From positions 310,001 to 374,000 of the forward strand of contig NZ_VYVA01000001.1 in NCBI RefSeq assembly GCF_009193215.1: a stretch of 64,000 nt of DNA, given 5' to 3'. The notes beneath the pieces are model-generated. The model had not been told where the DNA came from, searched no databases, and saw only the letters and a program-made list of their open reading frames with translations. This document shows, piece after piece, positions 32,765-63,580 of the stretch. The stretch's first letter is position 1. Every line of letters starts with the position of its first letter. Origin of the DNA: Flavicella marina. GTDB lineage: Bacteria; Bacteroidota; Bacteroidia; Flavobacteriales; Flavobacteriaceae. Position numbers and translations under genes: made by a program.

Positions 32765-32852
32765 TAAAAATAACGATTAACTAAAATTTCAAACCACTAT
32801 AAATTACCTTATAATAATCGAATTTTACCTTCTCATTGACTCAATATTACCT
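32765..32852 (-). promoter_or_regulatory. Promoter and tandem operator of the catabolic operon
   Basis: On the minus strand the -7 box is TATTTTTA (32765-32772). Read on the plus strand, TTACCT repeats stand at 32804 and 32825 (21 bp apart) and a third at 32847. The first repeat begins 39 bp from the box, the same geometry as at six other promoters here. Confidence 0.72.
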
Positions 32853-32893
32853 AAAAAAAAAGAGTGTTTCTTTTGTCTAGAAACACTCTTTTT
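32853..32893 (-). terminator. Terminator of the susCD1 operon
   Basis: A stem of about 11 bp (32859-32869 with 32881-32891) is followed on the minus strand by a long T-run. It lies 20 bp beyond the last lipoprotein gene of the operon. Confidence 0.88.
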
Positions 32894-32911
32894 ATTTGAT
32901 TATTATTATCA

Positions 32912-33358
32912 TTAGTTATAAACCTCAGCTTCCGTTATTACTACTGTATGGTTCGTAACATCCGTAGATCCATCTGGATAGGTAGCTGTAGCTACCATCG
33001 TTCCATTGCCATCCGCTTTTAAAGCATTGACAACTCTCACAACAGTAAATGTTTCAACTACATCAGAAACTGTTCTTTCTTCCGAAACCGTCCATTGAAA
33101 CACAAAGTCAGTATCAGTTGAAGTATCTGCATAATCACGGGTAACCGCACTAAAGACATTTATATCGGTTAAATAATTAACTACCAATGCTTTTTGCTTA
33201 TATACATTCATCTGAACAAGAGCACTATTGCTAATATTAGTAATTCCGTAAACAGGCGTTAATTGAATCCCTGAACTTGGGTATTTGTTTTCTGATTCGC
33301 AGGCCATGAAAGACAACGCTATTGCGAAAAGAAATATACTACTTATTAATTTTTTCAT
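32912..33358 (-). CDS. Small lipoprotein of the susCD1 operon
   Basis: The 148-residue product has a lipoprotein signal (FLFAIALSFMACES, Cys at residue 20). The short beta-rich body (FQWTVSEERTVSDVVETFTVV, ATYPDGSTDVTNHTVVI) looks like one Ig-like domain. No catalytic motif is seen and I recognise no named family. It is the last gene of the susC-susD-SGBP operon, 12 bp after its neighbour, so it probably sits on the cell surface with the import complex. Confidence 0.82.
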   Translation of the reverse strand: MKKLISSIFLFAIALSFMACESENKYPSSGIQLTPVYGITNISNSALVQMNVYKQKALVVNYLTDINVFSAVTRDYADTSTDTDFVFQWTVSEERTVSDVVETFTVVRVVNALKADGNGTMVATATYPDGSTDVTNHTVVITEAEVYN

Positions 33359-33370
33359 CTTTTTTTGTTT

Positions 33371-35140
33371 TTAGGGTCTTAACTCAACTTCAATAAATTC
33401 TAACTCATCAAGATACAATACCTGTGCTCCTGTAACACCAGCATTATTACCACCCGGTAAAATCGATGTATTATTACGTTTCGCTAAACCAGAACTTCCA
33501 GTTAAATCTGTAGCTACAACTAAATCATTACTCGCTCTAACACGAACCCATTGTCCTTTCGCGATTCCTGAAATATCAAACTTTGCGACATCTGTAGTCC
33601 CTCCGAATCCGAATGTAAGTTCATTGATTGTAGTTCCTGGCTCTACATATACCCAGTGGAATACTCTGTAAGTACCAGCTGGAATTCCGTCAGGACCATC
33701 CGCCAATCCAAATCCAAAAAGTTGTAAGGTATGCAATGCTGTTGCTTCTGCAGGTATTTCGTATTTCATACTTGCACCTCCTGTATAAGCTCTAAATTCA
33801 GATCTAGCCCAAATTTCATTTCCTGCGCCGTACCTCCAGTTCCCTGTAGCACCTCCACCTCCTGGAATCCAGTATTTGTTGGTTGCAAAAGCATTCGTAT
33901 GATTACCACCAGACGGTTCAAAACTTGCTACCGAATTTGTAGGAAGGATACTGTTACCATAATGCATCGCAACAACCTCAGGTCCAAAAGCCTGTAAGGT
34001 TCTGTTGTCAGCAGAAGTAATTGCACCGTTTCCATCGTATGATAACTCAACAGTATCACTATTGTAAATAGGCTGTGAAAGTTTTATTTCCATAAAAATT
34101 GGATTCTCATCATTCACCCTAACAGATTCTACTGGAATTACTTGATCAAATCCATTGGCATTTGTTACATGTACACTAAAATTACCTTCTTTACCAGTAA
34201 AAGGAGTTAACTCACCATTTACTCTAAAAGAAATCAATTCGTTTTCATCTTCTCTTAACACTCCATCAAAATTAAAAGGTTGTGTAGACTGTACAACTTT
34301 AACTTTTAAAGGAATTAGCTTTTCTTGATTTGAAGTTGGCAATGGCGCGACTCTTAAAGAACGGAAAGTTCCCACATTAAAAGTTCCCAACTTATAAAAA
34401 TTAATATTGACTGGCTGAGCAGCTCCTGCTCTACTAGGCACACCGTCTTCAACAAACCACGTACCTCCATTAGGTCTACCTTGCGTTGAATTGTCTATAA
34501 ATGTCAATCCAGTTGCAGCTTCAACTTCAACCACATCCCAGTTTGCTTCGTCAGCCAAACTTGGGTTATCAGATTCTGTAATCGTTAACACGGTAGCTCC
34601 ATCTTTCTGAACCGTAAAGGCAGGATTCAAATAGTCATAGATATCGAAAATAAACTCCACTTTGAATGTATATTTTCCATTCTCCTCTGTAATTTCTTCT
34701 TTCACATAATCTTGATAAGTATCACTCATATTTGAGGCAACTTCCGTATCAAAAGTATTGATCAAAGTAACTTTGTTCTCTCCTGGAGTTCTAAACAAAA
34801 CATGTGCTTTATCATTTGTAGATGTTGTCCCTAAATTTGGGTCAATAAACAAAGGCAAAGAGTCACTTTGTGTAAAACCTTCTGTCAAGAAGTAATTCCC
34901 TTCTTCAAGTATCCACTCAGAACTATTCGCTCCTTGTGCCAGATTGAAAAAAGAAATACTTGAATCAGCATTTAATGCAAATTGAGCGTCTGCACCCAAC
35001 TGTGGATTTAAACCTGCTAACCAAGAAACATCTTCAAAATTGTCTTGAGGAGCAGTATAATCGGCATATTCTTTACCGCAGCTCGCTATAAACAGAGAAC
35101 TTACAGAAAGTAATAATAATTTTATATTTTTCATCTTCAT
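33371..35140 (-). CDS. Surface glycan-binding lipoprotein (SGBP, SusE/F position)
   Basis: The 589-residue product has a lipoprotein signal (LLLSVSSLFIASCG, Cys near residue 21). It is built of beta-sandwich domains, rich in Trp, Asn and Gly, with no enzyme motif. Segments such as GGTWFVEDGVPSRAG and the C-terminal jelly-roll-like part (YWIPGGGGATGNWRYG to VLYLDELEFIEVEL) suggest two or more carbohydrate-binding modules. By position (third gene after susC and susD, 10 bp gap) it is the surface glycan-binding protein that captures oligosaccharide for the SusCD pair. Ligand unknown; carrageenan is inferred from context. Start could also be the second ATG two codons later. Confidence 0.85.
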   Translation of the reverse strand: MKMKNIKLLLLSVSSLFIASCGKEYADYTAPQDNFEDVSWLAGLNPQLGADAQFALNADSSISFFNLAQGANSSEWILEEGNYFLTEGFTQSDSLPLFIDPNLGTTSTNDKAHVLFRTPGENKVTLINTFDTEVASNMSDTYQDYVKEEITEENGKYTFKVEFIFDIYDYLNPAFTVQKDGATVLTITESDNPSLADEANWDVVEVEAATGLTFIDNSTQGRPNGGTWFVEDGVPSRAGAAQPVNINFYKLGTFNVGTFRSLRVAPLPTSNQEKLIPLKVKVVQSTQPFNFDGVLREDENELISFRVNGELTPFTGKEGNFSVHVTNANGFDQVIPVESVRVNDENPIFMEIKLSQPIYNSDTVELSYDGNGAITSADNRTLQAFGPEVVAMHYGNSILPTNSVASFEPSGGNHTNAFATNKYWIPGGGGATGNWRYGAGNEIWARSEFRAYTGGASMKYEIPAEATALHTLQLFGFGLADGPDGIPAGTYRVFHWVYVEPGTTINELTFGFGGTTDVAKFDISGIAKGQWVRVRASNDLVVATDLTGSSGLAKRNNTSILPGGNNAGVTGAQVLYLDELEFIEVELRP

Positions 35141-35150
35141 TATTTTTTAA

Positions 35151-36929
35151 TTAGTCTATCGAACGGTTAGTACTAGTTTCATCAAACGGAATAGGGTACG
35201 TACCATGCCTATCTTCACTATAATTTAAGAAAGGTGTATTGTATTCATAGTCAACTGTCAAATAAAAACCAGAAGTAGGTTGTGTTGCAACAATGCTTGC
35301 GTTATTATTCCTAGCAACCACTTGCTCAGTATCCCAGTTATAGTAAGAAATATTCACTCCGTAAAAAACAGATGTAGCAAGTTCACCTAATCTTTCTTTA
35401 AAACCATAATTATCACTTTTCTTCCATCTTTGGAAGTCCAAGAATCTAATATTATGACCTTCTACACTAGTCTCCAATGGTTTTTCTACACGCATTAAGT
35501 GTTGCATCAATGAATTTTGATCGTATGGTAACTCATCGTAAGTATGAGCAACATCACCGTTAGGCATACCTAATAATACTAAGCCCCATCTTTTACGAAT
35601 ATCATTGATCAATTCTAACGCTCCATCAACATCACCAGTTTTAATCAAACATTCTGCTTGCATCAAGTAAACGTCAGACAATCTATTCATAACAATATTT
35701 TTAGAAGAATACGCTTGTCCTCCAGGCAATTCTCCTTCTGTACTAACGATATCATCATTGGTGTAAATTTTCCACCAACCGTATCCCCAGTTAGCACCAC
35801 CAAATCTGTTATACTGACTTGTCGTTCCGTCTAAGTAGTAGATCGTTTCATTGTCATCGATTACCGCCATTATAGACGAACATCTCAACGGCACATGACG
35901 TAAGGCTGTTGCACCATTTTCATCTGTATAATAATTTGCAGAATTCAAAGGATCCATTGGCTCTGTCTTATAAGCATTTACCGCCCATGCTGGAGCTACA
36001 GCCGCCTTCGTTTGTGCCGTACGAACGTTGACCCAGTTTGTACCTGAATCACCTTCCCAAGGTTGTAAATCTAATCTCGCTTGCTCTGGAGCAAAATTAA
36101 TCTCAAAAATAGATTCACTATTAAACTCACCTGCAGTTGTAAACATTTTTGACAAATCAGTTTCTAAAGTATATCCATGATTCTGAATCACATCAGAAAA
36201 ATATGTCATCGCCTTTGTATAATCTAACTCGTACAAATATGATGTTCCTAAAATTGTTGCAGCTGCACCAGAAGTAACTCTACTTAAATCTCCGTCAGGA
36301 TATTCACCATTCTTATATAAGTTACTATATGCAAATTCTAAATCAGCTCTTAAGAAATCTAACACTTCTTGTTTCGATGACAATCCTTTTGCAAAATCTT
36401 CCTCCGTTACAGGCACTTTATCTCTGATAATGATGCTACCATCATTATAACTTGTTGCTAAATAAAAGTGAAATAATCCTCTAAAAAATCTAGCTTGGGC
36501 CATTTGAGATCTATATTCTGGTAAATCTCCAAAAGTTAACTCTAAACCTTCAAGCGCTTCAATAACCTGATTTGCTCTAAAGATTCCTAAGTAACAGTTT
36601 TGCCATTTCCCAAGTACTTGTTCAGAACTTGCAGTGTATAAATGCAAATATGATTCTTCTGTATTGTTAGGATTTGGTCTACCATAGCCTGGATATCCCA
36701 TATCTGATCTTAATATTTCTTCAAACTTATTTAATAGATCATTTCTATGTAAAGTTTGATACACTGTATTCAGTGTTGCTCCTGTTTCTGATAAGTTCGT
36801 CCAATACGTATCCGTAGATATTAAGTTTGGATTTTCTTGATCTAAATCTACTATTGATGTTATTTCACATGAGTTTAATAAACCCAATGTTAATACAAGT
36901 AGTGTATATTTTGAAATTAGTTGTTTCAT
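35151..36929 (-). CDS. SusD-like nutrient-binding outer-membrane lipoprotein (pair 1)
   Basis: The 592-residue product has a lipoprotein signal (LLVLTLGLLNSCE). The SusD/RagB alpha-helical fold is evident: an N-terminal TPR-like part (MAQARFFRGLFHFYLATSYND) and a C-terminal SusD motif (YLMQAECLIKTGDVDGALELINDIRKRWG). SusD proteins form the lid of the SusC barrel and bind oligosaccharide before import. It lies 15 bp after susC and belongs to the same operon, whose promoter carries the RGGTAA tandem sites. Confidence 0.95.
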   Translation of the reverse strand: MKQLISKYTLLVLTLGLLNSCEITSIVDLDQENPNLISTDTYWTNLSETGATLNTVYQTLHRNDLLNKFEEILRSDMGYPGYGRPNPNNTEESYLHLYTASSEQVLGKWQNCYLGIFRANQVIEALEGLELTFGDLPEYRSQMAQARFFRGLFHFYLATSYNDGSIIIRDKVPVTEEDFAKGLSSKQEVLDFLRADLEFAYSNLYKNGEYPDGDLSRVTSGAAATILGTSYLYELDYTKAMTYFSDVIQNHGYTLETDLSKMFTTAGEFNSESIFEINFAPEQARLDLQPWEGDSGTNWVNVRTAQTKAAVAPAWAVNAYKTEPMDPLNSANYYTDENGATALRHVPLRCSSIMAVIDDNETIYYLDGTTSQYNRFGGANWGYGWWKIYTNDDIVSTEGELPGGQAYSSKNIVMNRLSDVYLMQAECLIKTGDVDGALELINDIRKRWGLVLLGMPNGDVAHTYDELPYDQNSLMQHLMRVEKPLETSVEGHNIRFLDFQRWKKSDNYGFKERLGELATSVFYGVNISYYNWDTEQVVARNNNASIVATQPTSGFYLTVDYEYNTPFLNYSEDRHGTYPIPFDETSTNRSID

Positions 36930-36944
36930 TACAAATAAATTAAA

Positions 36945-39900
36945 TTAAAAATCGAAGTTTACACCCAACATCCACAATTGCGAGATCGGTCCTGTACTCT
37001 TATCAAGTCCTCTTGCTGCGATTCCTCCACCAATCTCTGGGTTGTAACCAGAATACTTTGTAAATGTTAATGGATTTTGAGCTCTCACATAAAAACGTAG
37101 TCTATTTACATCCCACTTTTCTACTATCTTTCTAGGAATACTATATCCTAAAGAGATTTGTCTTAACCTAAGGTAAGATCCGTCTTCTAAGAATAGATCA
37201 GAATAACCTGTATAGTTTGGATGTCTTCTAACATCGTCTCTATATGCTGGAATCGAAGATGTTGGATTCACATCTTGCCATTGATAAACTAAATCTTTGT
37301 GTCTACCAAATCCATAAGCATAGGCGTTAAAACCATTCATTATTTCTTGTCCGATTGCTGCGTACCAGTTCATTGAGAAATCAAAGCTTTTCCAGTTTGC
37401 ATTGAAGGTATAACCAATTTCATAGTCAGGCAATCCACTTCCACTGTAAACTCTATCATTTACATCTAGTTGGTTATCACCATTTTGATCAATAAAACGT
37501 GTATCTCCCATTTGAGCATTGGCATTGATCTTTTGATATTCAGCTAATTTCTCTTCCGTATCAATAATACCGTCTGTTCTCCATAAGAAAAAAGCCGCTG
37601 CTTCATGACCTACTGCTAATGCAGTAACCCTAGATTGTTGAGGCGCTCTTGAAACCAATCCATTATCGTTGGTTAGCATAAACTCGGTATCTCCATTAAT
37701 TTTTGTGATTTCATTATGATTTGTAGAGAAAGTAGCATTCATTCTATAGTTAACTTTTCCGGCACGTCCTCTAAACCCTGCAGTAAACTCAAAACCACTA
37801 TTGATCATGTCTCCAACATTCAATACAACTTGCGCGTTGTTACCACCACCCGTTGATGGAGGAATAAATACTGGAAATAACATATCTGATTTATCAGAGT
37901 GATAATATTCTGCTGCAAAAGTCAATCTGTTCTTAAACAAGCCTAAATCAACACCAATATTTCTTTGTGTAGTTGATTCCCATTTTACTTCTTGATTAAC
38001 ATAATCAGTTTGAGCTGCTCCCAAACTTACACCTCCTCCTGAGGTATGGTAGTTCAAATCTTGTGTTATTCCAGCAGCGAAGGCATAAGACTGAATTCTA
38101 TCTACACCCACCGTACCTTGACTTACTCTAAACCTAAAGTTATTGATGGTTTTTTTGCTCCACCATTTCTCATCAGAAATATTCCACGCAAAAGCTAATG
38201 ATGGGAATGTTTCAAAAGGATTTTTTTTGAATTTAGAAGAACCATCTTTACGAATACTCGAACTAAAAATATACTTTCCTTTATAGGCATATTGTAATCT
38301 ACCAATCATACCTATTCTCGTATCTACCCAGTCAAAACCAGAAGACACCGCTTGGGTACCAGTAGCACCATCTAACACAGAAATATTAGGATTCGTAGCT
38401 CCATTTCTTCTTGCAGTAAACGCCTCACTTCTACTCTCTTCAGCAGTAATAAACCCAGTAAATGTAAGATCATGATCTTCGAAAAGCACTTTATTATAAG
38501 TAACCCCTAATTCTCCAACGACATTCGTACTAAATCTAGTTCTCATATCAATATAACTATCTTCTGGTTGACTTTGAAGACGAGGAGGATTTTGTGTATT
38601 GTATATTTCAGTATATGGACGAACGATTTTTCCAATAGTATTATTAGTAGTCAATCCAAAATTCCCTGATAATGAAAGTCCTTTCATCAATTCATAGTTC
38701 AAGTTTAAAGAAGCATTTGCTCTTGTTCCTTTTTCTACGTTTGTCGTTTGTAAACTTTCGATTACCCAACCTAATCTATTTACGTCATCTCCACCTTGAC
38801 TTAGATCATCGTATCCATTAACATCAATACCATTTTGTGTTGGTCTATATACAATTGATTGTGACAATAAGAACCCTTGTGGTATATCTCTTTTACTAGT
38901 TTGCAACGCAACACTCGATTGAATTCTTAATTTATTCTTCTTGTAAACCGTACTGGCTCTCATGTTCATTCTTTGGAATCCAGAGTTTATTTGAAGTCCT
39001 TCTTGATCGTAATAACCAAGATTCACATTGTAAGTAATATCTTCAGTACCACCTGAAACGTTGATGTTATAATTCTGAGTAGGTACATTTTGTTTGAAAA
39101 TCAAATCATTCAAATTTGTTTCATTTTGAAATTGGTTTGTTTGTTGTTTGATTTGCAAACTTACTTGGTCATCAAAAGCGCCGTTTACATTTCTACTTTG
39201 AACGATATCAGCATATGTTTGCTCAACAGAATTCATTAATGGAATCGCAGCATTTCTATGGTTGATACCATAACTTGCATTCAAACGAACTTGTAATGAA
39301 CCCGGCTTCCCTTGTTTTGTTGTTATTAAAATAACTCCTGTAGCTCCACGAACTCCATAGATAGCAGTCGAAGAAGCATCTTTTAAGATATTAATCGACT
39401 CAATCTCTGATGGTGGAATATTCGGATCACCATCTTGAACAATACCATCTACTACGTATAGCGGTGTATTATTTCCTGACAAAGAAGTAATACCTCTAAT
39501 CAAGATTGACGATTCTCCTCCAGGTTCAGCGGAAGCTACAACATTTACACCAGCTGCCTGACCCTGCAATGCAGAAGCCAAATCTGGTGTTTGTACTGAA
39601 GTAATCTCAGCCGCTTTTACCTGCGTTACAGCACCTGTAATTTCTTTTTTCTTTACAGCACCATAACCAATAACAACTACTTCTTCTAACTCATCTACAT
39701 TCGCAACCATACTCGCATTTAGAGTTGTTCCATTTACAACAACCTTTTGATCAGTCATTCCCAAATAGCTAAATAACAACTCTTCACCCTGTATTGCTTC
39801 AATAGTGTATTCTCCGTCAAAGTTCGTTGTAACACCAACTGTTTTACCGTCACGCACAAGCGTTACAGATACACCAGGAATTGGGTTACCATCCTCTGCT

Positions 39901-40028
39901 CCAGTAACAACACCTTGTATTGTCTCTTTCTGCCCTTGAGCAGAAATAGTAATGCTCATCGCCAAAAAAATAAAAAGGACTGAATGCTTCAATCTTTTCT
40001 TAAAATTTAATTTTTGTTTAATTTTCAT
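36945..40028 (-). CDS. SusC-like TonB-dependent transporter (pair 1)
   Basis: The 1027-residue outer-membrane protein has a signal peptide (residues ~15-31). A carboxypeptidase-regulatory-like domain (IQGVVTGAEDGNPIPGVSV) is followed by a plug domain with LEEVVVIGYGAVKKKEITG and YVVDGIVQDGDP, then a ~800-residue 22-strand barrel. The final residues NFDF (terminal aromatic) suit BAM-dependent insertion. It imports oligosaccharides with the downstream SusD. The likely transcription start lies ~205 nt upstream, giving a long leader. No FecR/anti-sigma partner is present, so control is probably by the AraC proteins or the HTCS. Confidence 0.95.
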   Translation of the reverse strand: MKIKQKLNFKKRLKHSVLFIFLAMSITISAQGQKETIQGVVTGAEDGNPIPGVSVTLVRDGKTVGVTTNFDGEYTIEAIQGEELLFSYLGMTDQKVVVNGTTLNASMVANVDELEEVVVIGYGAVKKKEITGAVTQVKAAEITSVQTPDLASALQGQAAGVNVVASAEPGGESSILIRGITSLSGNNTPLYVVDGIVQDGDPNIPPSEIESINILKDASSTAIYGVRGATGVILITTKQGKPGSLQVRLNASYGINHRNAAIPLMNSVEQTYADIVQSRNVNGAFDDQVSLQIKQQTNQFQNETNLNDLIFKQNVPTQNYNINVSGGTEDITYNVNLGYYDQEGLQINSGFQRMNMRASTVYKKNKLRIQSSVALQTSKRDIPQGFLLSQSIVYRPTQNGIDVNGYDDLSQGGDDVNRLGWVIESLQTTNVEKGTRANASLNLNYELMKGLSLSGNFGLTTNNTIGKIVRPYTEIYNTQNPPRLQSQPEDSYIDMRTRFSTNVVGELGVTYNKVLFEDHDLTFTGFITAEESRSEAFTARRNGATNPNISVLDGATGTQAVSSGFDWVDTRIGMIGRLQYAYKGKYIFSSSIRKDGSSKFKKNPFETFPSLAFAWNISDEKWWSKKTINNFRFRVSQGTVGVDRIQSYAFAAGITQDLNYHTSGGGVSLGAAQTDYVNQEVKWESTTQRNIGVDLGLFKNRLTFAAEYYHSDKSDMLFPVFIPPSTGGGNNAQVVLNVGDMINSGFEFTAGFRGRAGKVNYRMNATFSTNHNEITKINGDTEFMLTNDNGLVSRAPQQSRVTALAVGHEAAAFFLWRTDGIIDTEEKLAEYQKINANAQMGDTRFIDQNGDNQLDVNDRVYSGSGLPDYEIGYTFNANWKSFDFSMNWYAAIGQEIMNGFNAYAYGFGRHKDLVYQWQDVNPTSSIPAYRDDVRRHPNYTGYSDLFLEDGSYLRLRQISLGYSIPRKIVEKWDVNRLRFYVRAQNPLTFTKYSGYNPEIGGGIAARGLDKSTGPISQLWMLGVNFDF

Positions 40029-40238
40029 TTCCTAAATTATTGGATTAGTTTATTCATTATTTTTTGTTAGACAACCTCTCCAAATTAATTCGGATACAGT
40101 TTTATATATAGGTTCTTCATTTTTCTGCTCATAATTAATCGGTTTTAGATTGTGTTATTAAGTATTCGTTTTTTTTACATATCTAAAAATAAACAACACC
40201 CTTCGGTATCGGATGACTTCAATAGACATGTAATAGGG

Positions 40239-40304
40239 TAAAATTAACAGATACTTAACAATTCGAAAGTCATTTTTTTACCCCATAATTAACCTATATT
40301 ACCT
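40239..40304 (-). promoter_or_regulatory. Promoter and tandem operator of susC1
   Basis: On the minus strand the -7 box is TAATTTTA (40239-40246). Plus-strand TTACCC at 40278 and TTACCT at 40299 are 21 bp apart, and the first begins 39 bp from the box. Confidence 0.75.
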
Positions 40305-40412: not shown

Positions 40413-41906
40413 TTATTTTTTTGAGGCTGTCTGATTCAATTTATTCACTTCAAAAGTTTCTTTGAAGTTTGGCATTCTTCCTTCTTCCCACAATAATTCA
40501 TCCATGGCTGAATAATACCATAATGGTTTCACAAAACTCTGGGTCCAATTAGCAATTTCGCCGACCATTTCTTTCATTTTATCCGGGTATCTGTACCCCA
40601 AGTTTTTCTTTTCTCCCATGTCTTTTTCAACATCAAACAACAACCAAGGCTCGTTACCCATTCGAGTAACTTTCAGATTTCCTTTCCTTCCAGCTACATC
40701 ACAATAACCATGTCTGTACCTAACGGCATAAATCATATCTTCTTTATACACATCTTCTCCTTCAAACAAAGCTTTGCTCAGATCTTTACCTGCCAAGGTT
40801 TTATTTTTAGGTAATTTAGCTTTCGAAAGACTCAAAAAAGTTGGGTACAAATCCAACGCCGATACAGGATACTTGTATATTTGACCTCTTTGAATTTTTG
40901 CCGGCCAATGTACGAACATAGGAACTCGAAATCCACCTTCCCAAGTATCTCCTTTCGTACCTTTTAGAGGATAGTTATTTGCACCATGATCAAAATTACC
41001 TCCATTATCACTTAAAAAGACAATTATCGTATTGTCAAATTGATTCGTTTCTTTAAGAGTCTGAACAATCTTACCAACACCTCTATCTAAAGCATACACC
41101 ATACCTGCATAAATTTTACGATCTTTATCCTTAATCTCAGGGAACACATCCATATCTTCTTTCTTCGCTTCCAATGGCACGTGTGGTGCATTATAGGCAA
41201 GGTAAATAAAGAAAGGCTTTTTATTCTTTGCTGCTACTTTTATACTATTAGCAGCCTCTCTTGATAATGCATCTGTTATGTATTCCGTTTCTTTTACCTC
41301 TTTTCCGTTATGTTCTAAAGGTAGTATATAATCACGAATCACTTTTGCACCAGCATTTACTTGATTCGCGTATTGCTTCTGATACTTACTTGGGAAATAG
41401 TTATGTCCACCTCCTAAGAATCCATAAAAATTGTCAAAACCTCTTTTGTTTGGATGAAATTTAGGCGCAGCTCCCAAGTGCCATTTTCCTATTGCAGAAG
41501 TATAATATCCTTCTTTCTGTAGTGCTTTTGGCATAAACACTTCATTTGTAGGTATCCCCATATTATCTGCATCGGCTTCGCTTGAATTTGAATGCAAATT
41601 AAAAGGAACCCCTACTTGATGGGGATAACGCCCTGTCATTAGAGCCGCTCTTGATGGACCACAGAATGAATGAGCAACATAGGCCGAAGTAAATATTGTT
41701 CCGTTATTCGCCAATTTATCTAATTCAGGTGTGATTATATCCGGTGAACCATTAAATCCAACATCCGCATACCCAAGATCATCACACAAAACGACTAATA
41801 TGTTCGGTGGAGTTTTCTTTTTTACAGGTTCAGCAGCTCTCGAGCCACAACTTACAATTGACAAAGCAAGTCCTAAAACGATATTGAAAGATTTCATTTT
41901 TTTCAT
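40413..41906 (-). CDS. S1_19-like sulfatase, lipoprotein
   Basis: From the start at 41906 the product has 497 residues, with a lipoprotein signal (LGLALSIVSCGS). The core PNILVVLCDDLGYADVGFNG with activation motif CGPSR (C82) and FLSDNGGNFDHG places it with S1_19, the group used for galactose 4-sulfate removal in carrageenan systems. It is a close paralog of the T9SS-tailed enzyme at 26369 but lacks that tail, so it is membrane-anchored. The upstream TTG at 41924 is rejected; the ATG at 41906 begins the signal sequence. Terminators stand on both sides, so it is monocistronic. A weak, imperfect operator-like sequence lies upstream. Confidence 0.9.
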   Translation of the reverse strand: MKKMKSFNIVLGLALSIVSCGSRAAEPVKKKTPPNILVVLCDDLGYADVGFNGSPDIITPELDKLANNGTIFTSAYVAHSFCGPSRAALMTGRYPHQVGVPFNLHSNSSEADADNMGIPTNEVFMPKALQKEGYYTSAIGKWHLGAAPKFHPNKRGFDNFYGFLGGGHNYFPSKYQKQYANQVNAGAKVIRDYILPLEHNGKEVKETEYITDALSREAANSIKVAAKNKKPFFIYLAYNAPHVPLEAKKEDMDVFPEIKDKDRKIYAGMVYALDRGVGKIVQTLKETNQFDNTIIVFLSDNGGNFDHGANNYPLKGTKGDTWEGGFRVPMFVHWPAKIQRGQIYKYPVSALDLYPTFLSLSKAKLPKNKTLAGKDLSKALFEGEDVYKEDMIYAVRYRHGYCDVAGRKGNLKVTRMGNEPWLLFDVEKDMGEKKNLGYRYPDKMKEMVGEIANWTQSFVKPLWYYSAMDELLWEEGRMPNFKETFEVNKLNQTASKK

Positions 41907-42005
41907 TTTTATTATTTTTTTCAAATAGTGATATAAAATTACGGTATATCATCTTTCCATTTTCACCCAAAATACACCTAAACCTAATCAAAATTAACTC
42001 ATAAC

Positions 42006-45243: not shown

Positions 45244-45309
45244 CAAAGTAAGTACTATAAACTACTTGCAGCTTTATATTAATTAACTACGAATAGTTCT
45301 ATTTTACCA
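45244..45309 (-). promoter_or_regulatory. Promoter and tandem operator of the GH16 gene
   Basis: On the minus strand the -7 box is TTACTTTG (45244-45251). Plus-strand TTAACT at 45283 and TTACCA at 45304 are 21 bp apart, and the first begins 39 bp from the box. The second repeat overlaps the A-run of the next terminator. Confidence 0.72.
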
Positions 45310-47517: not shown

Positions 47518-47583
47518 CAAAGTAAATTCATAATATCAATTTTCCGTAAATAAAACTTACCCTCTATAGGCATTATTTTACCC
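47518..47583 (-). promoter_or_regulatory. Promoter and tandem operator of GH127 copy 2
   Basis: On the minus strand the -7 box is TTACTTTG (47518-47525), identical to that of GH16. Plus-strand TTACCC at 47557 and 47578 are 21 bp apart, and the first begins 39 bp from the box. Confidence 0.8.
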
Positions 47584-49386: not shown

Positions 49387-49403
49387 CTTCTAAATTGTTT
49401 TAA

Positions 49404-52400: not shown

Positions 52401-52643
52401 TCCCTGATCATCTGAAACCGTACCTGTAATTTCTATTTGCTGAACTGGAGCAAATACAACTTCTTCAGAAGTCAAATTTAAGTCACTTGATTTGATTGCA
52501 GTGAATTCATTTGCATTCACTTCATTTAAACCTAGTGATACACAAAAAGCAGAGAAAAGTGCTTTCTTGAAAAATCGACTAGTCACTATGCCATCTAAAT
52601 TAAGACAGGTAGTAACCGGTTCTAGTTTTCTAATTTTTTTCAT
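49404..52643 (-). CDS. SusC-like TonB-dependent transporter (pair 2)
   Basis: The 1079-residue outer-membrane protein has an unusually long N-terminal leader before the hydrophobic segment (FFKKALFSAFCVSLGLNEVNANE). A CarboxypepD-regulatory domain (ITGTVSDDQGPMPGVNVMI) and a plug with LDEVVVLGYTTRKKGDVTG and LILIDGVPSG follow. The rest is barrel, with a terminal aromatic residue. It pairs with SusD2. The probable transcription start lies ~157 nt upstream, and the leader holds a perfect 8-bp inverted repeat (52721-52746). The promoter carries the tandem operator. Confidence 0.94.
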   Translation of the reverse strand: MKKIRKLEPVTTCLNLDGIVTSRFFKKALFSAFCVSLGLNEVNANEFTAIKSSDLNLTSEEVVFAPVQQIEITGTVSDDQGPMPGVNVMIKGTSKGTQTDFDGNFKINVDSRDAVLVFSYIGFSDQQISVGTNTNLNVTMKADVEGLDEVVVLGYTTRKKGDVTGSVSTVGSETLQQTTNKDLAKSLSGKVTGVIISDRGGVPGSTDEDDLSILIRGKATPGNNQPLILIDGVPSGSFSQLSAQDIASLTVLKDGAAAIYGARAANGVILITTKRGGIGKPTVNLSTSYGISQFSAFPNQMTSEQYAIYENEIAERNGLTQPFSDEDIAKYAAGNDPLNYPSTQWGDLTFKSSAPESRTSISVSGGTERVKYFVSGDFIKQEGMFRTGSLNFKQNQVRSNIDINLTKDFKVGVDLSGRFGDRNAPGVSQSYIYKHVYTNFPTEVGVYPNGLPAWGGENGSNPYIMATDASGNVNRKDNDLRSRFSFDWNLNKLTDGLSVKGWAGIRKQSYDEKNWYTPWTVYTYQEGSDEYVPSLGFSQQGQQRVLRESFWKFDETVLNATVHYNRLFDDVHSVSGFVGYEQAESTRRNFWAERRGFPTPDHSELFAGDDDGQQSYGESQSWSRVNYFAALSYDYDKKYYLDFTIRHDGSSNFGPNKRFGTFPGVAASWAIHEEGFMNNVSWLSTLKLRASWAKMGNDRTDDPNQWRTRYDYGSGTNVARPNFYVVGEGGVSNNGFRSAGVPNPDVTWETAYMQNIGLSFGMFSGRLTGDLNYFYQNRQDILVDETAAIPDAIGINNLPEKNIGIVDSFGYEIELAWNDRVGNVGYNLGLNFTNAQNRVVSWPEPVDIPDKLRREGHSIDSYIVYPTNGVFRDQAQVDAAPAKLNGTVEGEPYYIDTDENGTINADDRVRTFTSNVPQIQYGITGGLNYKNFDFHFLFQGQAKAEMLVFFDQNGAKPEHVFTQRWTPENRDSRYPRAFGQGDPYSGNQSGDSENFEGADFWLHDASFVRLKEIEVGYTFNKSQIRFADVKLFVRGLNLFTFFSDVYDLGLDPEAAGYNNFRGSTYPSLKTYTLGMNFTF

Positions 52644-52805: not shown

Positions 52806-52871
52806 CAAAACTCAATATTTATTAGACGCATAAACGGATGAAATTTACCCACCGATCACCTTATTTTACCA
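52806..52871 (-). promoter_or_regulatory. Promoter and tandem operator of susC2
   Basis: On the minus strand the -7 box is GAGTTTTG (52806-52813). Plus-strand TTACCC at 52845 and TTACCA at 52866 are 21 bp apart, and the first begins 39 bp from the box. Confidence 0.75.
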
Positions 52872-52883: not shown

Positions 52884-53741
52884 TTATATTGAGCGTCTAT
52901 AATTTTTTGGAGTACAACCCATCACTTGTTTGAATTGTTTATTAAAATTAGTAACAGACTTATAACCAACAAGGTAACAAACCTCATTAACAGGATAGTC
53001 TTCCTGTACTAATAGTCGAGAAGCATTTCTAATTCTTACCTCATTCAAAAAACGAGTAAAAGACTTATTTGTCATTTTTTTAAAAAACCTACAAAAAGAA
53101 TTTGTAGTCATACAAGCAACATCTGCCACATCTTCTAGTGAGATATAACTAGCATAGTTGTCAGAAATAAACTTTAACACTGTATCGATACGATCTGAAT
53201 TATTTGTCGTGTATTGTCTCATGTCGGATGATGACAATTGAATACGATCTTCAGATATAGATAAATTATACAATATATTCAAAAGCTTAATCGATTGTTC
53301 AGGTCTCGTTGCATCGTAGATACCAATTAAATCTTTATGTAATTTTTTAGATATTTTATTGCCAAATGAAACTCCGTACTTTGACTGAGAAAGCATTTTT
53401 TTAATCTCTGCAAATTCTGGATTATCAAAAGCACCTTCACCAAGAAAATCATAATTGAATTTCATTACAATGGTGTTCACACTATCAAACTGTCCTTCGG
53501 TATAGTATTCAGGATCATTTCTCCAAAGGTGTGGTAAATAGGGACCTACTAAAACCAAATCACCAGGCTCAAAATGTGCAACACTATCACCAACAAATCT
53601 AATTCCAGTACTTTTCGTTATGTACAACAATTCGTATTGTGCATGGTAATGCCAAGTAGCATCTAAGCAAGGAACTTCCTTTTTAGTAACACTCAATCTT
53701 TCGTTAACTAACGTGTCTGTATTTTTTAAAACTAACTTCAT
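52884..53741 (-). CDS. AraC family transcriptional regulator (paralog 1)
   Basis: The 285-residue cytoplasmic product has an N-terminal cupin-like sensor domain (about 1-160; DATWHYHAQYELLY and VGDSVAHFEPGDLVLVGPYLPHLW). The C-terminal AraC DNA-binding domain has two helix-turn-helices (about 185-283; SLEDVADVACMTTNSFCRFF and VNEVCYLVGYKSVTNFNKQF). It is strongly similar over its whole length to the AraC gene at 62616. Its 3' end is 12 bp from the susC2 operator. The region upstream holds two pairs of 21-bp-spaced repeats and a consensus -7 box. It is a prime candidate for the activator that binds the RGGTAA tandem sites. Confidence 0.93.
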   Translation of the reverse strand: MKLVLKNTDTLVNERLSVTKKEVPCLDATWHYHAQYELLYITKSTGIRFVGDSVAHFEPGDLVLVGPYLPHLWRNDPEYYTEGQFDSVNTIVMKFNYDFLGEGAFDNPEFAEIKKMLSQSKYGVSFGNKISKKLHKDLIGIYDATRPEQSIKLLNILYNLSISEDRIQLSSSDMRQYTTNNSDRIDTVLKFISDNYASYISLEDVADVACMTTNSFCRFFKKMTNKSFTRFLNEVRIRNASRLLVQEDYPVNEVCYLVGYKSVTNFNKQFKQVMGCTPKNYRRSI

Positions 53742-54087: not shown

Positions 54088-57000
54088 CTATATTACCCCT
54101 CCTTTTGACGCGTAAACAGATGGAGACACACTATAAAACTCTTTAAAGGCTTTGTTAAAATGAGGTCTATTTTTAAATCCTGTTGACAAAAACACTTCAT
54201 TTACCGACATTTTTTGTTGTACCAACATCGTTGCAGCTTTCTTCAATCGATATGTTTTTAACAAATTATATGGTGTTTGATCAGTAAGTGCCTTTACCTT
54301 TTGGAAAAAATGAGTTCTGCTTAAAAACAGTTCTTTAGCAAATGAATTGATATCAACATCGGGATTGTCTATGTTATCATCCATCAAACTATAGAGTTTC
54401 TCTAAAAATGCCAAATCGACATTAACGATTTCATCTTTTTTTCTCGTCAACGGAAGATTTACCTCAAACCGCTCGCGAAGCAACTTTCTACCTTGTAATA
54501 TCGATTCTAATTTAGAGATCAACAGTTTCATTTCAAATGGCTTCGTGATATAACTATCAGCTCCATCCATTAATCCTTTTACCTGTTCATCAACATCAGC
54601 ACATGCAGTAAGCAATACGATTGGAATATGGCTCGTATTGATATCTGATTTCACTCTTCTGCACAATTCAAACCCATTTAATTCAGGCATCAAAACATCA
54701 CTAATAATAAGATCAGGCCATTCGGTCGCAAGTGCATCGAGGCAAAGTTTTCCATTTCGAAATGTAGAAACCTTAAAATATCCGCTTAGCGCGTTTGAGA
54801 TAAACATGCGCATATCGTCATTATCTTCAGCTAAAAATATACTCGCACCAGAAATACTTTCATCTACATCGATATTTTCTAATTGCTTTTGATCCGGAAC
54901 AAACTTAACGCTATTATATTCCCGCTCAGTTGCAAGAACCTCTTTTTCTTTCTCTATTTGTACTTCTGAATAACCTTCAATGACAATCGGGAGCTGAAAC
55001 GATATAATGGTACCTTTTTCAAATTCACTTTCAGCGACAATATTACCATAATGCATTTCAACAAGACGTTTAGAAAATGCCAATCCGATTCCGGACCCTC
55101 CAACACCAAAACTATTTTTCTTTCTCGAATGGTAAAATCTATCAAAAACATGTGGTAAATCTTCGGGCTCAATTCCTTTGCCAGTGTCTTCAATAGCTAC
55201 ACATAATTTATTGCCTTCTTGATAGTAGCGAATAGTAACTGTATCGTCGGGTTCCGTAAACTTGAAAGAATTACTCAATAAATTGGTCAAAACTTTCTCT
55301 ATTTTATCATAATCAGCAAAAACATAGATCGCATGTTCTGGCTTCTGGATTTCCAGCTTCTTTTGGTGGTTTATCACATGTAACTCAAAATCTTTTGAAA
55401 CCTCATCTATCAAGTCTTTAAAATAAAAATGTGATTTATTGAGCTTTAGCGCATTCGCATCAGATTTTTGGAAATCGTGAACTTGATTGACTAGCTGTAT
55501 GATTTTTCTTGTCTGTCTTTGAATCATTTCTAAATGACCATAAATATCAGTTTGTTTTCTAAACTTTTCTGACAAGATAGATACAGGACCAGAAATAAGG
55601 GTGAGCGGTGTTTTGATCTCATGGGAAATATCTGAAAAATACCTCAATTTTGCTGCACTTATCTCATTTACCTTATCTTTTTCGAATTGCTCTAATTCTA
55701 AATCATGCTCTAGTCTAATATATTGTAATCTATAATTCACAACTCCAAAGACAACTACTACAATCAACAAGACATATAGCAACCTTGCGATGGTAGTATT
55801 CCACCAAGGTTGTAAAATTTTTATTTTTAACTCTTTTGCATCTGTCCAATCGTTCAATGAGTTTGAGGCCTTGCATTTCAATATATATTCTCCTGGAGGC
55901 AAACTGTTAAAGTTTATTGTTTTCTGTGAACTAGGAACTTTTATCCATTCAGCATTGGTAGGGTACAGTTGATATTTTATATAATATTTACTTGGGTTAG
56001 AAAAATGCAACGAAACTACATCAATTGAAATGATATTTTGGTCGTGCTCTAAAACCAACTCATTTGTATAATCAAGATTACTATTTAAAACAACACTGCC
56101 ATTTATTGTATCTTTTGGTTTGATTTCGTGATTCAGCACTTTTAGTTTGGTAAAACTCAATTGCGGCAGTGGCTTATAAAGTTCTAGTTCTTCATATTTG
56201 AAATAGAAAAACCCTCGATAGCCATTCAACAATAAAGTACCATTATCAAATAAGGTATTTATATCTCTAAACTCTTCAAATGGCAAACCATCTTCTTTAT
56301 AAAACTTGGCAAAACTTTCTTCTTTAGGATTGAATTTATTGAGTCCGAAATTTGTCGGAATCCAAATGTTATTCTTTTTGTCAACGAATAAATCCTGCAC
56401 ATTGTTATCAGACAGACCTTCAGTTTCTGTATATGATTTGAAAGTTAATTTGTCATTATCTTCGTTTACTTTACTGATTCCACCTCCTGCAGTTCCAACC
56501 CACAATACATTATTTGGCCCTCTTTTTATTGCACTTACATAATTATAAGGTAAAGATTCAACATCATTCACATCTGCTATACATTGAATAATTGGCAATT
56601 GATCCAATGGGACATCTTTTTTTAATTCAATACGATACAAACCATCATGTATGGTACCCAGCCACAAATAATTATAAATCGGATCGAAATAAAAATCGCG
56701 CATGTAGTACAACTTGTCTTTGATGAAAAATGGGTTATTAGAAAGCAATTCTGCATTAGAAAATTTATCATTCTCAAACTTGAGACGAAAAATAGAATTC
56801 ACACTATGAATCCAAATATCTCCAAACTGATCTTCTTCGATAGAACGAAATGAAATCAAATCAGCTAAGTCTTCACACTTTATCAGTTCAACCTTTTTGC
56901 TTTTATTATGGACTTTATATAACTTTTTATTTCGATACCAAACCCAAGTATTGTCTTTAGAATCAACCAAAATATCAACAACATTGCTATTGGAAATTCT

Positions 57001-58200
57001 CCTAAAACTTATGGGTAATTTTTCCTTTTTCCCGGTGGCTATGTTTATTAAATCTACACGACCATTTCTGGTAATCACATACGCTCGCTGATCATCAATC
57101 TTTGATATATTTAATATTCTGTAGGCGTTGATGTCGTTACTCAACACATCTTCATTAGAGAATTGCTTGAAGGGTGTTTTTCTGGATTTCAATTTATAAA
57201 CACCTTTATCAAAAGAACCTATCCAGGCTCCCTTATTTTCCGTTATCAGGATAGATGTTATATTACTATGTTCCGTTTCTATTTTAAACTGAGAGTGTAC
57301 AACATTCTTCTCGAGTATAAGCTTGAAAACATTATCTATAAAAGACAAACCTGTATATCGTTTTCCTAACCATAAATTACCTTGTTTGTCGATAGTTGCA
57401 ACGTTAAATCTCGTGTTTTGAAATCCCTTATACAAGTTTGTATAAAAGAACCCTTCTTCAAGTATTTTAAAAGAATAAATAGCAACTCCTGTTTCAAGTG
57501 TAACCAAAAGCTTATCATTATCGAAAACTTGCAAAGCCTTTGCATTCTCAAAAGTAACATCAGGAAGTAATTTGTATTTTTTAGTGACTGTATTAAAATG
57601 AAGCATTCCAATATTTGAAGAAATCAATAAGTTATTGACATCTAACAAAACCAAATCGTTTAATAAAATTGGAGTATTCGATAATTCCGAGGGTATCGAA
57701 TGTTTATCCAACAACCTTTGACTTGAATTAAAAACCAAAACACCTTCTTGCCATGTCATGGCATACAATAGCCCTTTACTATCATTCTCAACTATTTTCA
57801 ACACCCCAGGTCCCTTGTCTAATTTATTCTTGAGTTGATTTGAATACAAGGGAGTAAATCGATCTAAAACATAATCATAGATAGTAATTCCATTATCTGT
57901 CCCGATCCAAATAAGCCCATTTGCATCTTCCCAAAGAGATCGAATTCTATTACTAACTAGTATTTTTTTATTGGTAGTATTTCTATATTTCTTTATGTCA
58001 TAGCCATCATACCTATTCAATCCATTAAAAGTACCAATCCAAATATACCCCCTTGAATCTTCTAACAAACAGGTTACACTATAATCCGACAAACCTTCAG
58101 AAACAGAAATGTGCGATATCGGTTTTAATTGACTTTCTTGTGCGAACAACGCCTTCGAAAGAAAGAAAAACGCAACATAAAGGAAGTACTTTTTTACCAT
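54088..58200 (-). CDS. Hybrid two-component system sensor/regulator (HTCS)
   Basis: The 1370-residue product carries a complete phosphorelay in one chain. A signal peptide is followed by a periplasmic sensor of Reg_prop propeller repeats (about 30-700; GYIWIGTFNGLNRYDGYDIK and others) and a Y_Y_Y domain (about 705-790). One transmembrane segment lies at ~806-822. HisKA follows with phospho-acceptor H860 (SDISHEIKTPLTL), then HATPase_c (about 965-1075; LLSNSFKF, DTGKGI, GGSGIGLAFSK). The receiver domain (1119-1237) has Asp1168 (IISDVLMPEL), and an AraC DNA-binding domain ends the protein. HTCS proteins sense PUL oligosaccharides in the periplasm and activate nearby susCD genes. Coexistence with two AraC paralogs suggests two-layer control. 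Confidence 0.95.
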   Translation of the reverse strand: MVKKYFLYVAFFFLSKALFAQESQLKPISHISVSEGLSDYSVTCLLEDSRGYIWIGTFNGLNRYDGYDIKKYRNTTNKKILVSNRIRSLWEDANGLIWIGTDNGITIYDYVLDRFTPLYSNQLKNKLDKGPGVLKIVENDSKGLLYAMTWQEGVLVFNSSQRLLDKHSIPSELSNTPILLNDLVLLDVNNLLISSNIGMLHFNTVTKKYKLLPDVTFENAKALQVFDNDKLLVTLETGVAIYSFKILEEGFFYTNLYKGFQNTRFNVATIDKQGNLWLGKRYTGLSFIDNVFKLILEKNVVHSQFKIETEHSNITSILITENKGAWIGSFDKGVYKLKSRKTPFKQFSNEDVLSNDINAYRILNISKIDDQRAYVITRNGRVDLINIATGKKEKLPISFRRISNSNVVDILVDSKDNTWVWYRNKKLYKVHNKSKKVELIKCEDLADLISFRSIEEDQFGDIWIHSVNSIFRLKFENDKFSNAELLSNNPFFIKDKLYYMRDFYFDPIYNYLWLGTIHDGLYRIELKKDVPLDQLPIIQCIADVNDVESLPYNYVSAIKRGPNNVLWVGTAGGGISKVNEDNDKLTFKSYTETEGLSDNNVQDLFVDKKNNIWIPTNFGLNKFNPKEESFAKFYKEDGLPFEEFRDINTLFDNGTLLLNGYRGFFYFKYEELELYKPLPQLSFTKLKVLNHEIKPKDTINGSVVLNSNLDYTNELVLEHDQNIISIDVVSLHFSNPSKYYIKYQLYPTNAEWIKVPSSQKTINFNSLPPGEYILKCKASNSLNDWTDAKELKIKILQPWWNTTIARLLYVLLIVVVVFGVVNYRLQYIRLEHDLELEQFEKDKVNEISAAKLRYFSDISHEIKTPLTLISGPVSILSEKFRKQTDIYGHLEMIQRQTRKIIQLVNQVHDFQKSDANALKLNKSHFYFKDLIDEVSKDFELHVINHQKKLEIQKPEHAIYVFADYDKIEKVLTNLLSNSFKFTEPDDTVTIRYYQEGNKLCVAIEDTGKGIEPEDLPHVFDRFYHSRKKNSFGVGGSGIGLAFSKRLVEMHYGNIVAESEFEKGTIISFQLPIVIEGYSEVQIEKEKEVLATEREYNSVKFVPDQKQLENIDVDESISGASIFLAEDNDDMRMFISNALSGYFKVSTFRNGKLCLDALATEWPDLIISDVLMPELNGFELCRRVKSDINTSHIPIVLLTACADVDEQVKGLMDGADSYITKPFEMKLLISKLESILQGRKLLRERFEVNLPLTRKKDEIVNVDLAFLEKLYSLMDDNIDNPDVDINSFAKELFLSRTHFFQKVKALTDQTPYNLLKTYRLKKAATMLVQQKMSVNEVFLSTGFKNRPHFNKAFKEFYSVSPSVYASKGGVI

Positions 58201-58296: not shown

Positions 58297-58316
58297 GTAG
58301 TAGAATAACAATCTTG

Positions 58317-61670
<3,354 letters not shown>

Positions 61671-61689
61671 CTACTTTTATTTTAGGAAT

Positions 61690-62043
61690 CTAAATATTCT
61701 TTAATTCTGTACGCATTCTATCCATAAAAGGTTTTAGTTCAGGATACGTTTTTCCAGTGATTTTAATTAACTTATTATTAAACTCTTTATTGACTTCATT
61801 GATTTGAGTCTTTATATCCTCAGCAGAAATTTCACCTGCTTTGCCTTTTTTCATGATAGCAACATAATCATTAAAATAAGCGACTCTTTCATCTAACAAG
61901 TTTTTCTCTTCAGCTTCGTCTAAGTCAAATTCTTCTGCAGCTGCAGATACATAATAATTGATTTTTTTCATTTGGTATTTATCTTGAGCAAAAACACCTT
62001 GTATTGAAAATACCAAAACAGCGAGTAAAATTATTTTTTTCAT
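61690..62043 (-). CDS. Small secreted helical protein of unknown function
   Basis: The 117-residue product has a clear signal peptide (LLAVLVFSIQGVFAQ). The mature part is short, charged and helical (EFDLDEAEEKNLLDERVAYFNDY, then TQINEVNKEFNNKLIKI). I recognise no family and see no catalytic motif. It lies between the VOC-protein gene and the GH2 gene, 135 bp after the former, with its own terminator. It may be read from the VOC promoter or from an unseen one. Confidence 0.7.
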   Translation of the reverse strand: MKKIILLAVLVFSIQGVFAQDKYQMKKINYYVSAAAEEFDLDEAEEKNLLDERVAYFNDYVAIMKKGKAGEISAEDIKTQINEVNKEFNNKLIKITGKTYPELKPFMDRMRTELKNI

Positions 62044-62178
62044 TTTTTGAAACTTTTAAATTGTTATTATATTTCTGAAGAAAAGCAATACCCACTTATA
62101 AACTAACCAAAACCAAATCAAAAGCGAAACTTAAAAAACTTCAACTCTTATCTAAGCAGGTATATGCTTCTTCAATTT

Positions 62179-62499
62179 TTATTCTTTTACTTCCATAAAT
62201 TCAACCGGAGAACCGTTGTGAACAATAAAAGCCACTCTAACTCCTTCACCTGGTGAAAAGGTTTCGACTAATATTTCTTTCCCTTCAATAGCTTCCTCGA
62301 TATTATCTACTAAAAATGCGACATGAGGCAATTTCTGCATCATTTCAGGCATAGGAGAATCCGAATCAAACTTTATCCATTCTACTCCATATTCATCTTT
62401 ACTAAAATCTGTATAATGAATCTTCCCTGGCTCGTAAAAACCATCCCAATTTTTTTCTTCTGTTGTTGGGATTCCAATATGACTAAATTTATAATCCAT
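62179..62499 (-). CDS. Small VOC (glyoxalase/bleomycin-resistance fold) protein
   Basis: The 106-residue cytoplasmic product has the short paired beta-alpha-beta-beta-beta layout of VOC proteins (FSHIGIPT at the start, KLPHVAFLVDNIEEAI in the middle, GSPVEFMEV at the end). The two His (H7, H78) and the final Glu (E101) stand where many VOC proteins bind metal. The reaction is unknown; VOC members include isomerases, epimerases and dioxygenases. Its promoter carries the tandem operator with the exact shared geometry. This places a protein of unknown function inside the galactan regulon, so a role in anhydrosugar conversion is worth considering. Confidence 0.82.
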   Translation of the reverse strand: MDYKFSHIGIPTTEEKNWDGFYEPGKIHYTDFSKDEYGVEWIKFDSDSPMPEMMQKLPHVAFLVDNIEEAIEGKEILVETFSPGEGVRVAFIVHNGSPVEFMEVKE

Positions 62500-62546
62500 T
62501 GCTGTTGTTTAAGTTTATATTATAGTTGGAAAGTTACTTCCTGTTA

Positions 62547-62612
62547 CAAAATTGGCTTAATTATTAGTAATTAAAACTATGGTTTTTACCCTACACCAAC
62601 ATTATATTACCT
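62547..62612 (-). promoter_or_regulatory. Promoter and tandem operator of the VOC gene
   Basis: On the minus strand the -7 box is CAATTTTG (62547-62554). Plus-strand TTACCC at 62586 and TTACCT at 62607 are 21 bp apart, and the first begins 39 bp from the box. Confidence 0.78.
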
Positions 62613-62615
62613 TTA

Positions 62616-63491
62616 CTAATCGCCAATCATATTATAATATCTGTATTCGTTTGGTGTACTACCCATAGCTAACTTAAATTGCTTATTAAAATTATTAATC
62701 GAATTATAACCCACCAAATAACATATTTCAGAAACCGATTTTTCTTTGTGCACCAAATACCTCAATGCTTTTTTTATTCGAACTTCATTCAAAAACTGTA
62801 CGAACGATTTATTTGTCATTTTTTTAAAAAACCTACAGAAGGAATTAGGTGTCATACATGCCAAATTGGACACATCTTCAAGGGATATATTTTGTGTATA
62901 ATTATCTGAAATATACTTTAAAACCGTATCCAGTTTATCGGTTTTATGAGGGACCACCTGCCTCATATCTGTGTTTGATAATCTAACCTTATCATTTGTT
63001 CTAGCCAACTTAAGTAATATTTCCATCAAATGGATTGATTGGTTCGCAAGAGGCATTTTTACAATTTTTGCTAATGTATCATGTAATTCTTCGGTGATCT
63101 CAGAACCAAAACTGACTCCAAATTTTGACTCATCTAACAGTTCCCTAATCTCAATAAACTCTGGTCTCTCAAATGTTTCTACACTGATAAACTCTTTCTT
63201 AAACTTCAGTACCGTTGTTTCAACTTGCTTGTTTCCTTCATTCTTATGATCATAGAAAGACGCATCATTTCTCCAAAGATGAGGAACATATGCACCTACC
63301 AAAACTAGATCTCCAGGATGAAAAGACGCAACGCTATCTCCGACAAACCTGATACCGCTACTTTTAGTAACATATAACAACTCAAATTGACTATGGTAGT
63401 GCCACGATGAGTCAATACAAGGCACCTTGTTTCTTAAAACGCTTAGCCTCTGATTTACAATATCTTTAGAGTTCTTTAAAAATAATTTCAT
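62616..63491 (-). CDS. AraC family transcriptional regulator (paralog 2)
   Basis: From the start at 63491 the product has 291 residues. It matches paralog 1 throughout: cupin-like sensor (DSSWHYHSQFELLY, VGDSVASFHPGDLVLVGAYVPHLW) and C-terminal double helix-turn-helix (SLEDVSNLACMTPNSFCRFF, VSEICYLVGYNSINNFNKQF). The start is set by this alignment; the Met at 63527 would add 12 unmatched residues. Its own promoter carries the RGGTAA-type tandem site, so autoregulation or cross-control with paralog 1 is likely. It is flanked by the VOC gene and a GH16 gene. Confidence 0.93.
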   Translation of the reverse strand: MKLFLKNSKDIVNQRLSVLRNKVPCIDSSWHYHSQFELLYVTKSSGIRFVGDSVASFHPGDLVLVGAYVPHLWRNDASFYDHKNEGNKQVETTVLKFKKEFISVETFERPEFIEIRELLDESKFGVSFGSEITEELHDTLAKIVKMPLANQSIHLMEILLKLARTNDKVRLSNTDMRQVVPHKTDKLDTVLKYISDNYTQNISLEDVSNLACMTPNSFCRFFKKMTNKSFVQFLNEVRIKKALRYLVHKEKSVSEICYLVGYNSINNFNKQFKLAMGSTPNEYRYYNMIGD

Positions 63492-63514
63492 AAAATCTAA
63501 TTGTTGGTCTTCTA

Positions 63515-63580
63515 CAAATTGAATCATTATTACGCCTCACTAATTGTTAAAAATTATCTATCCGTCTCACGTTTTTACCT
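63515..63580 (-). promoter_or_regulatory. Promoter and tandem operator of araC paralog 2
   Basis: On the minus strand the -7 box is TCAATTTG (63515-63522). Plus-strand TTATCT at 63554 and TTACCT at 63575 are 21 bp apart, and the first begins 39 bp from the box. Confidence 0.72.

Follow-up and report, generated by a model that had tools for sequence, protein, structure and literature searches.

Seven putative operator-promoters at a carrageenan locus

The 64,000-nucleotide stretch of the Flavicella marina genome analysed here (contig NZ_VYVA01000001.1, positions 310,001 to 374,000; hereafter the window) carries genes related to the use of carrageenan and 3,6-anhydro-D-galactose, along with two AraC-family regulator genes, araC1 and araC2. 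Seven sites on its minus strand share the form RGGTAA-N15-RGGTAA-N35-TTTG/A, in which two direct repeats stand at a fixed distance from a -7 box. The first-pass annotation had described these sites, and all seven are present with that geometry. They are very probably operator-promoters of a single regulon for carrageenan and 3,6-anhydro-D-galactose, which would be under an AraC activator with a cupin domain and a helix-turn-helix (HTH), acting in the class-II mode. The predicted operator-promoters, in window coordinates, are:

32765-32830, minus strand: dauB operon; distal box 32825-32830, proximal box 32804-32809, TTTA at 32765-32768
40239-40304, minus strand: susC_B/susD_B; boxes 40299-40304 and 40278-40283; the -7 TTTA lies within ATTTTACC, an inverted half-site
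45244-45309, minus strand: GH16 gene; weakest proximal box of the seven (AGTTAA)
47518-47583, minus strand: GH127_1; exact match to the three-block pattern
52806-52871, minus strand: susC_A/susD_A; located between araC1 and susC_A
62547-62612, minus strand: gene for a 106-aa VOC-like protein; exact match to the three-block pattern
63515-63580, minus strand: araC2, with auto- or cross-regulation proposed; matches both the matrix (see below) and the pattern

Counted from the -7 tetramer, the proximal box starts at 39 bp and the distal box at 60 bp. Five of the seven sites have an exact TTACC in both boxes; in the other two the proximal box deviates, reading TTAACT at 45244 and TTATCT at 63515. 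The tetramer reads TTTA at 32765 and 40239 and TTTG at the remaining five sites. Since the spacer sequences differ among the sites, these are not recent copies of one another, as the first-pass annotation had argued. The dauB operator also has a third half-site, AGGTAA at 32847-32852, 22 bp upstream of the distal box.

The genes behind these promoters and the two regulator genes are:

31542-32702, minus strand: dauB-like 3,6-anhydro-D-galactonate cycloisomerase, an MR/MLE enolase (MR_MLE_C, 4.5e-61), first gene behind 32765; named by context with ZGAL_3156 (PMC5698469)
30075-31529, minus strand: aldehyde dehydrogenase, dauA-like (Pfam)
29318-30073, minus strand: HpcH/HpaI aldolase (Pfam)
28279-29286, minus strand: RhaT-type symporter (Pfam)
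35151-40028, minus strand: susC_B (36945-40028) and susD_B (35151-36929) (Pfam)
44246-45217, minus strand: GH16 enzyme (Pfam GH16, 1.8e-12; NCBIfam K_carrageenase, 2e-9, far under its cut-off)
45362-47428, minus strand: GH127_1, dagA-like (Pfam GH127, 1.7e-93)
47665-52643, minus strand: susC_A (49404-52643) and susD_A (47665-49386), cgtA/cgtB-like by context (Pfam)
62179-62499, minus strand: 106-aa VOC/glyoxalase-like protein (Pfam Glyoxalase, E=0.0075, under the gathering cut-off)
52884-53741, minus strand: AraC1, cupin plus AraC-type HTH (HTH_18, 6.3e-22), the proposed operator binder on the basis of orthologue co-occurrence, a tree and an AlphaFold model
62616-63491, minus strand: AraC2, a paralogue 58% identical to AraC1 (HTH_18, 4.9e-20)

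The aldehyde dehydrogenase, aldolase and symporter genes (28279-31529) are probably part of the dauB operon, as gene spacing suggests, and the GH16 enzyme is possibly kappa-carrageenase-like. The catabolic operon, both susC genes, the GH16 and GH127 genes and an araC gene had all been named as served by the sites, and this assignment holds; the VOC call that went with it is tentative at its Glyoxalase score.

Rarity and conservation of the operator architecture

With up to one mismatch to the three-block pattern, the window contains six matches against 0.02 expected (100 dinucleotide shuffles, maximum 1), and with up to two mismatches it contains seven against 0.23. In the whole genome (3,155,273 bases) the one-mismatch pattern occurs at eight places, which are six of the window sites, C7:374646-374711, about 650 bp past the window, and C7:822943. 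Seven of the eight are thus in or beside the carrageenan locus, and the similar frequency before unrelated genes that would have counted against the prediction is not seen. The two-box pattern alone shows no genome-wide enrichment at up to one mismatch (92 matches versus 161 for the reversed control), so much of the signal lies in the constant distance to the -7 box. Telling the sites from background takes the three-block pattern or the matrix; the two boxes alone do not suffice.

All seven promoters of the first-pass annotation exist, but seven is an undercount, as there is an eighth just outside the window and there are four unlinked candidates. The eighth, C7:374646-374711, lies upstream of a second GH16 gene. 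The candidate at C14:253158, with TTTG at N34, precedes a sulfatase gene whose relatives in G002 (76% identical) and G323 (72%) also carry the motif. An AraC paralogue that is 35% identical to AraC1 adjoins this unlinked sulfatase gene (G000:C14:250653-253184). Two candidates precede genes for secreted proteins: the protein behind C7:824068 has homologues with the motif in G383, G213 and G138 (44-47% identity, near full length), and the one behind C7:822943 has partial similarity to G084 (39% over 170 aa). The last, C7:478387 (E = 0.0035), precedes an S1 sulfatase gene and is without orthologue support.

Among 397 genomes of the family, dauB was located in 34. Besides the present genome, 13 of these, from 13 genera (clade 1), have strong matches near dauB to a model built from the sequences of the seven sites alone, and 581 kb of carrageenan loci from these genomes were compared. 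On the same strand, 47 pairs of GGTAA stand exactly 21 bp apart, where other spacings average 3-4 pairs, and 25 of the 47 have TTTG at exactly N35 after the proximal box. When all pentamers were tested with no motif assumed, GGTAA topped the enrichment at 21 bp (z = 24). A 75-bp matrix of 34 bits, built from a two-box seed with only the 13 other genomes as training data, identifies 89 sites above 16 bits in those genomes, whereas Markov-simulated sequence contains no site above 12. In the window it recovers exactly the seven sites, which score 24-42 bits; everything else there stays at 13 or below. A degenerate operator at 41925-41999 (12.9 bits) precedes the sulfatase gene 40413-41924, and relatives of that sulfatase have strong sites.

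A search before orthologous genes in other Flavobacteriaceae had been suggested with the original prediction, and the same architecture is found there in the 13 genomes compared. The dauB gene is preceded by the operator in 11 of them, and the next genes elsewhere encode SusC_A, SusC_B, GH127, GH16, S1 sulfatases, GH2, transporters, 2-keto-3-deoxygalactonokinase (dauC), a KDPG-type aldolase (dauD) and secreted proteins with type IX secretion system tails. The start codon lies a median of 62 bp from the -7 tetramer. Relatives of the first GH16 gene have the motif in G213, G383 and G138, and those of the VOC-like gene in G002 (81% identity) and G084 (59%). SusC_A relatives also have it upstream, and in several genomes the motif lies directly downstream of the araC1 orthologue. 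The operator-linked genes are those of the published Zobellia carrageenan/D-anhydrogalactose pathway (PMC5698469).

A second group of genomes (clade 2) also carries the motif. A refined model has strong matches in each of the three that were scanned with it, G236, G001 and G334 (best E 5e-8, 2e-7 and 5e-7), G334 being Maribacter vaceletii (100% identity over 12.5 kb). Matrix sites are present in ten clade-2 loci, before RhaT, GH127, sulfatase, susC or dauB genes, and in G236 and G001 they also precede susC genes distant from the locus. The half-sites in clade 2 have two parts, GGnTAAAATAaTGcTA, as might be expected of a double-HTH protein touching two DNA turns. In a control set of 16 genomes without dauB, the refined model has no match below E=8.8e-4. 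Judged by these matches, some twenty genera of marine bacteria share the predicted operator in conserved form.

The AraC proteins and the proposed activation

AraC1 and AraC2 each have a C-terminal double-HTH AraC domain, indicated by HTH_18 and by matches to solved AraC-family DNA-binding domains, and an N-terminal cupin-like sensing domain (Cupin_2, about 5e-5, under the gathering score). Protein alignment places the start of AraC2 most likely at 63491 and not at the open reading frame start, 63527. The AlphaFold model of AraC1 has a cupin and an AraC-type domain, with a mean predicted local distance difference test score (pLDDT) of 85.9 and a predicted template modelling score (pTM) of 0.63. 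Its nearest PDB structures are AraC-family proteins, and the sensor domain resembles those of RhaR and the regulatory domain of AraC.

AraC1 orthologues (61-72% identity) are present in exactly the 13 genomes with consensus-type motif matches, mostly in the same locus as dauB, and in several of these genomes the motif comes directly after the araC gene. The clade-2 AraC proteins are 37-40% identical to AraC1 and in most genomes are encoded about 3.5 kb from dauB, in the order AraC - 430-aa gene - RhaT - dauB, which matches ZGAL_3159-3158-3157-3156. The tree unites AraC1 and AraC2 with the clade-1 orthologues (100/100) and places ten clade-2 proteins in a second group (100/100). AraC1, AraC2 and the clade-2 proteins have almost identical HTH recognition helices (SFCRFFKK; NFNKQFK), from which those of the genome's other AraC paralogues depart further. 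Gene position suggests that AraC1 and AraC2 are CgrA-like. The operator would be common to both, and the sites cannot be split between the two paralogues.

In Flavobacterium the sigma-A box TAnnTTTG sits at -12 to -5 (PMC9723704). A -7 TTTG ending at -5 would put the half-sites at about -70 to -54 and -49 to -33. A dimer of AraC1 and/or AraC2 may bind these two direct 16-17-bp half-sites (GGTAAAATAnTGcTA-like), whose 21-bp spacing is two helical turns, and the proximal one may substitute for a missing -33 element and recruit sigma-A polymerase, as in class-II AraC activation. The peaks at 21 bp and N35 give the fixed spacing and -7 register that a class-II position demands. The -33 element was sought in the motif promoters, and TTG shows no excess there (30 observed, 29 shuffled). 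The inducer is likely to be a carrageenan breakdown product, for example D-anhydrogalactose or an oligosaccharide, that would occupy the cupin pocket, and the site before araC2 could provide feedback. AraC binding, the ligand, activation and the operon extents are inferred here from the features above.

Alternative regulators and known systems

A single AraC-controlled carrageenan regulon, as the first-pass annotation had predicted, is supported by the unbiased GGTAA test at 21 bp, by the pathway genes served, by co-occurrence with AraC1/AraC2 orthologues and by RNA-seq and cgrA deletion data from Zobellia (PMC5698469). The neighbouring hybrid two-component regulator (HTCS, 54088-58200) is a competing owner of the operators, because it adjoins the locus, has an AraC-type HTH and belongs to a family whose motifs, as predicted in Bacteroides, consist of direct repeats with a mean of 21 bp (PMC3878776). 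No relative of the HTCS in the motif-bearing genomes exceeds 45% identity, and many of these genomes (G119, G138, G145, G169, G213, G246, G320) have no relative above the cut-off, whereas AraC1 orthologues are found in all of them, most near the sites. HTCS control is thus improbable, and as the motif does not co-occur with an orthologous HTCS, this protein was rejected as the binder. That the boxes might be a promoter element common to Bacteroidota, without a regulator of their own, is hardly credible; the N35-TTTG register does link them to the core promoter, but all except one of the eight places in 3.16 Mb lie in or beside the carrageenan locus and the dauB-less control genomes are devoid of matches below the E-value given above. 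AraC1 could instead be a repressor that blocks sigma-A access until relieved by the inducer, given that a protein on the proximal half-site, which extends to about -33, could stand in the way of polymerase, and that some -7 boxes contain an inverted half-site. Repression seems quite improbable, and an activator is favoured, because the absence of a -33 element fits activator dependence, and because Zobellia without cgrA shows delayed and weaker growth on carrageenan, in keeping with positive control (PMC5698469).

Several observations weigh against an AraC1-type activator dedicated to carrageenan. The top match in the control set, G018:C8:17553-17625, comes from a genome without dauB and precedes an AraC gene 35% identical to AraC1; therefore the geometry is not exclusive to carrageenan, and the site suggests autoregulation in a wider AraC subfamily. 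In G237 and G238 there is no AraC1 orthologue, yet dauB is still preceded by a variant motif, found by the matrix, with half-sites of the GGTAATT.TTGA type in the same 21-bp and N35 geometry. Their AraC proteins are only distant (34-37% identical), so one of these would have to serve, and it is possible that regulator and site are diverging together. The G237/G238 and G018 exceptions fit a wider AraC subfamily that may share this geometry. The Flammeovirga GH127 loci have no matrix site, three Wenyingzhuangia loci have just one weaker site apiece, and there is no above-threshold site before dauB in G383 and G138.

In Zobellia galactanivorans the carrageenan pathway genes are co-induced by carrageenan, D-anhydrogalactose induces ten locus genes, and the AraC protein CgrA (ZGAL_3159) is needed for normal growth on carrageenan (PMC5698469). 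The two systems share dauA, dauB, dauC, dauD, dagA, cgtA/B, sulfatase and GH16 genes, an AraC-family regulator encoded near dauB and some members unlinked to the main locus. Unlike in Zobellia, the susCD pairs here are inside the locus and there are two AraC paralogues; AraC1 is related to the clade-2 proteins in the CgrA position at the 37-40% identity given above. The main text of the Zobellia paper describes no operator (PMC5698469), and a literature search limited to main texts found no published operator for CgrA or a carrageenan regulator. The HTCS operators predicted in Bacteroides likewise have tandem direct repeats about 21 bp apart before polysaccharide-use genes and an AraC-type HTH (PMC3878776), but the regulator proposed here is a one-component cupin-AraC protein and not a membrane hybrid kinase, the half-site is different, and a fixed N35 to the -7 box is present. 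Because such repeats were already predicted there, the architecture is of a known kind, here in a widely conserved candidate operator and regulon for carrageenan use.

At araI1-araI2, E. coli AraC occupies a pair of direct half-sites separated by about two helical turns, with the proximal half-site adjoining the -35 region. The sites described here are similar in their paired direct half-sites and in the AraC fold of the proposed binder, and differ in the half-site, in a Bacteroidota sigma-A with TAnnTTTG, and in that no distant looping site was identified here. In marine Bacteroidota, the genes for carrageenan use are known to form a scattered regulon whose members are induced together and in which one AraC-family regulator is important. 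The 66-bp fixed-spacing motif lets these members be listed genome-wide, among them unlinked sulfatases and uncharacterised secreted proteins, and opens CgrA-type control to experimental test.

The -7 boxes vary with the gene served. In dauB promoters the tetramer is mostly TTTA or TTAG, with TTTG in 4 of 18 against 85 of 125 in the other motif promoters (Fisher p=4e-4, for promoters that are not phylogenetically independent). TTTACC stands at -7 in five of nine susC_B promoters (window 40235-40246; G072, G084, G323, G383), where this inverted half-site, the reverse complement of GGTAAA, overlaps the -7 box. It is conceivable, though doubtful, that a rigid operator geometry throughout the regulon is combined with conserved gene-specific -7 boxes (TTTA/TTAG for dauB, ATTTTACC for susC_B, TTTG elsewhere) that sort promoters into response classes. 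Such classes, if real, could account for the partial induction of the Zobellia regulon by D-anhydrogalactose alone.

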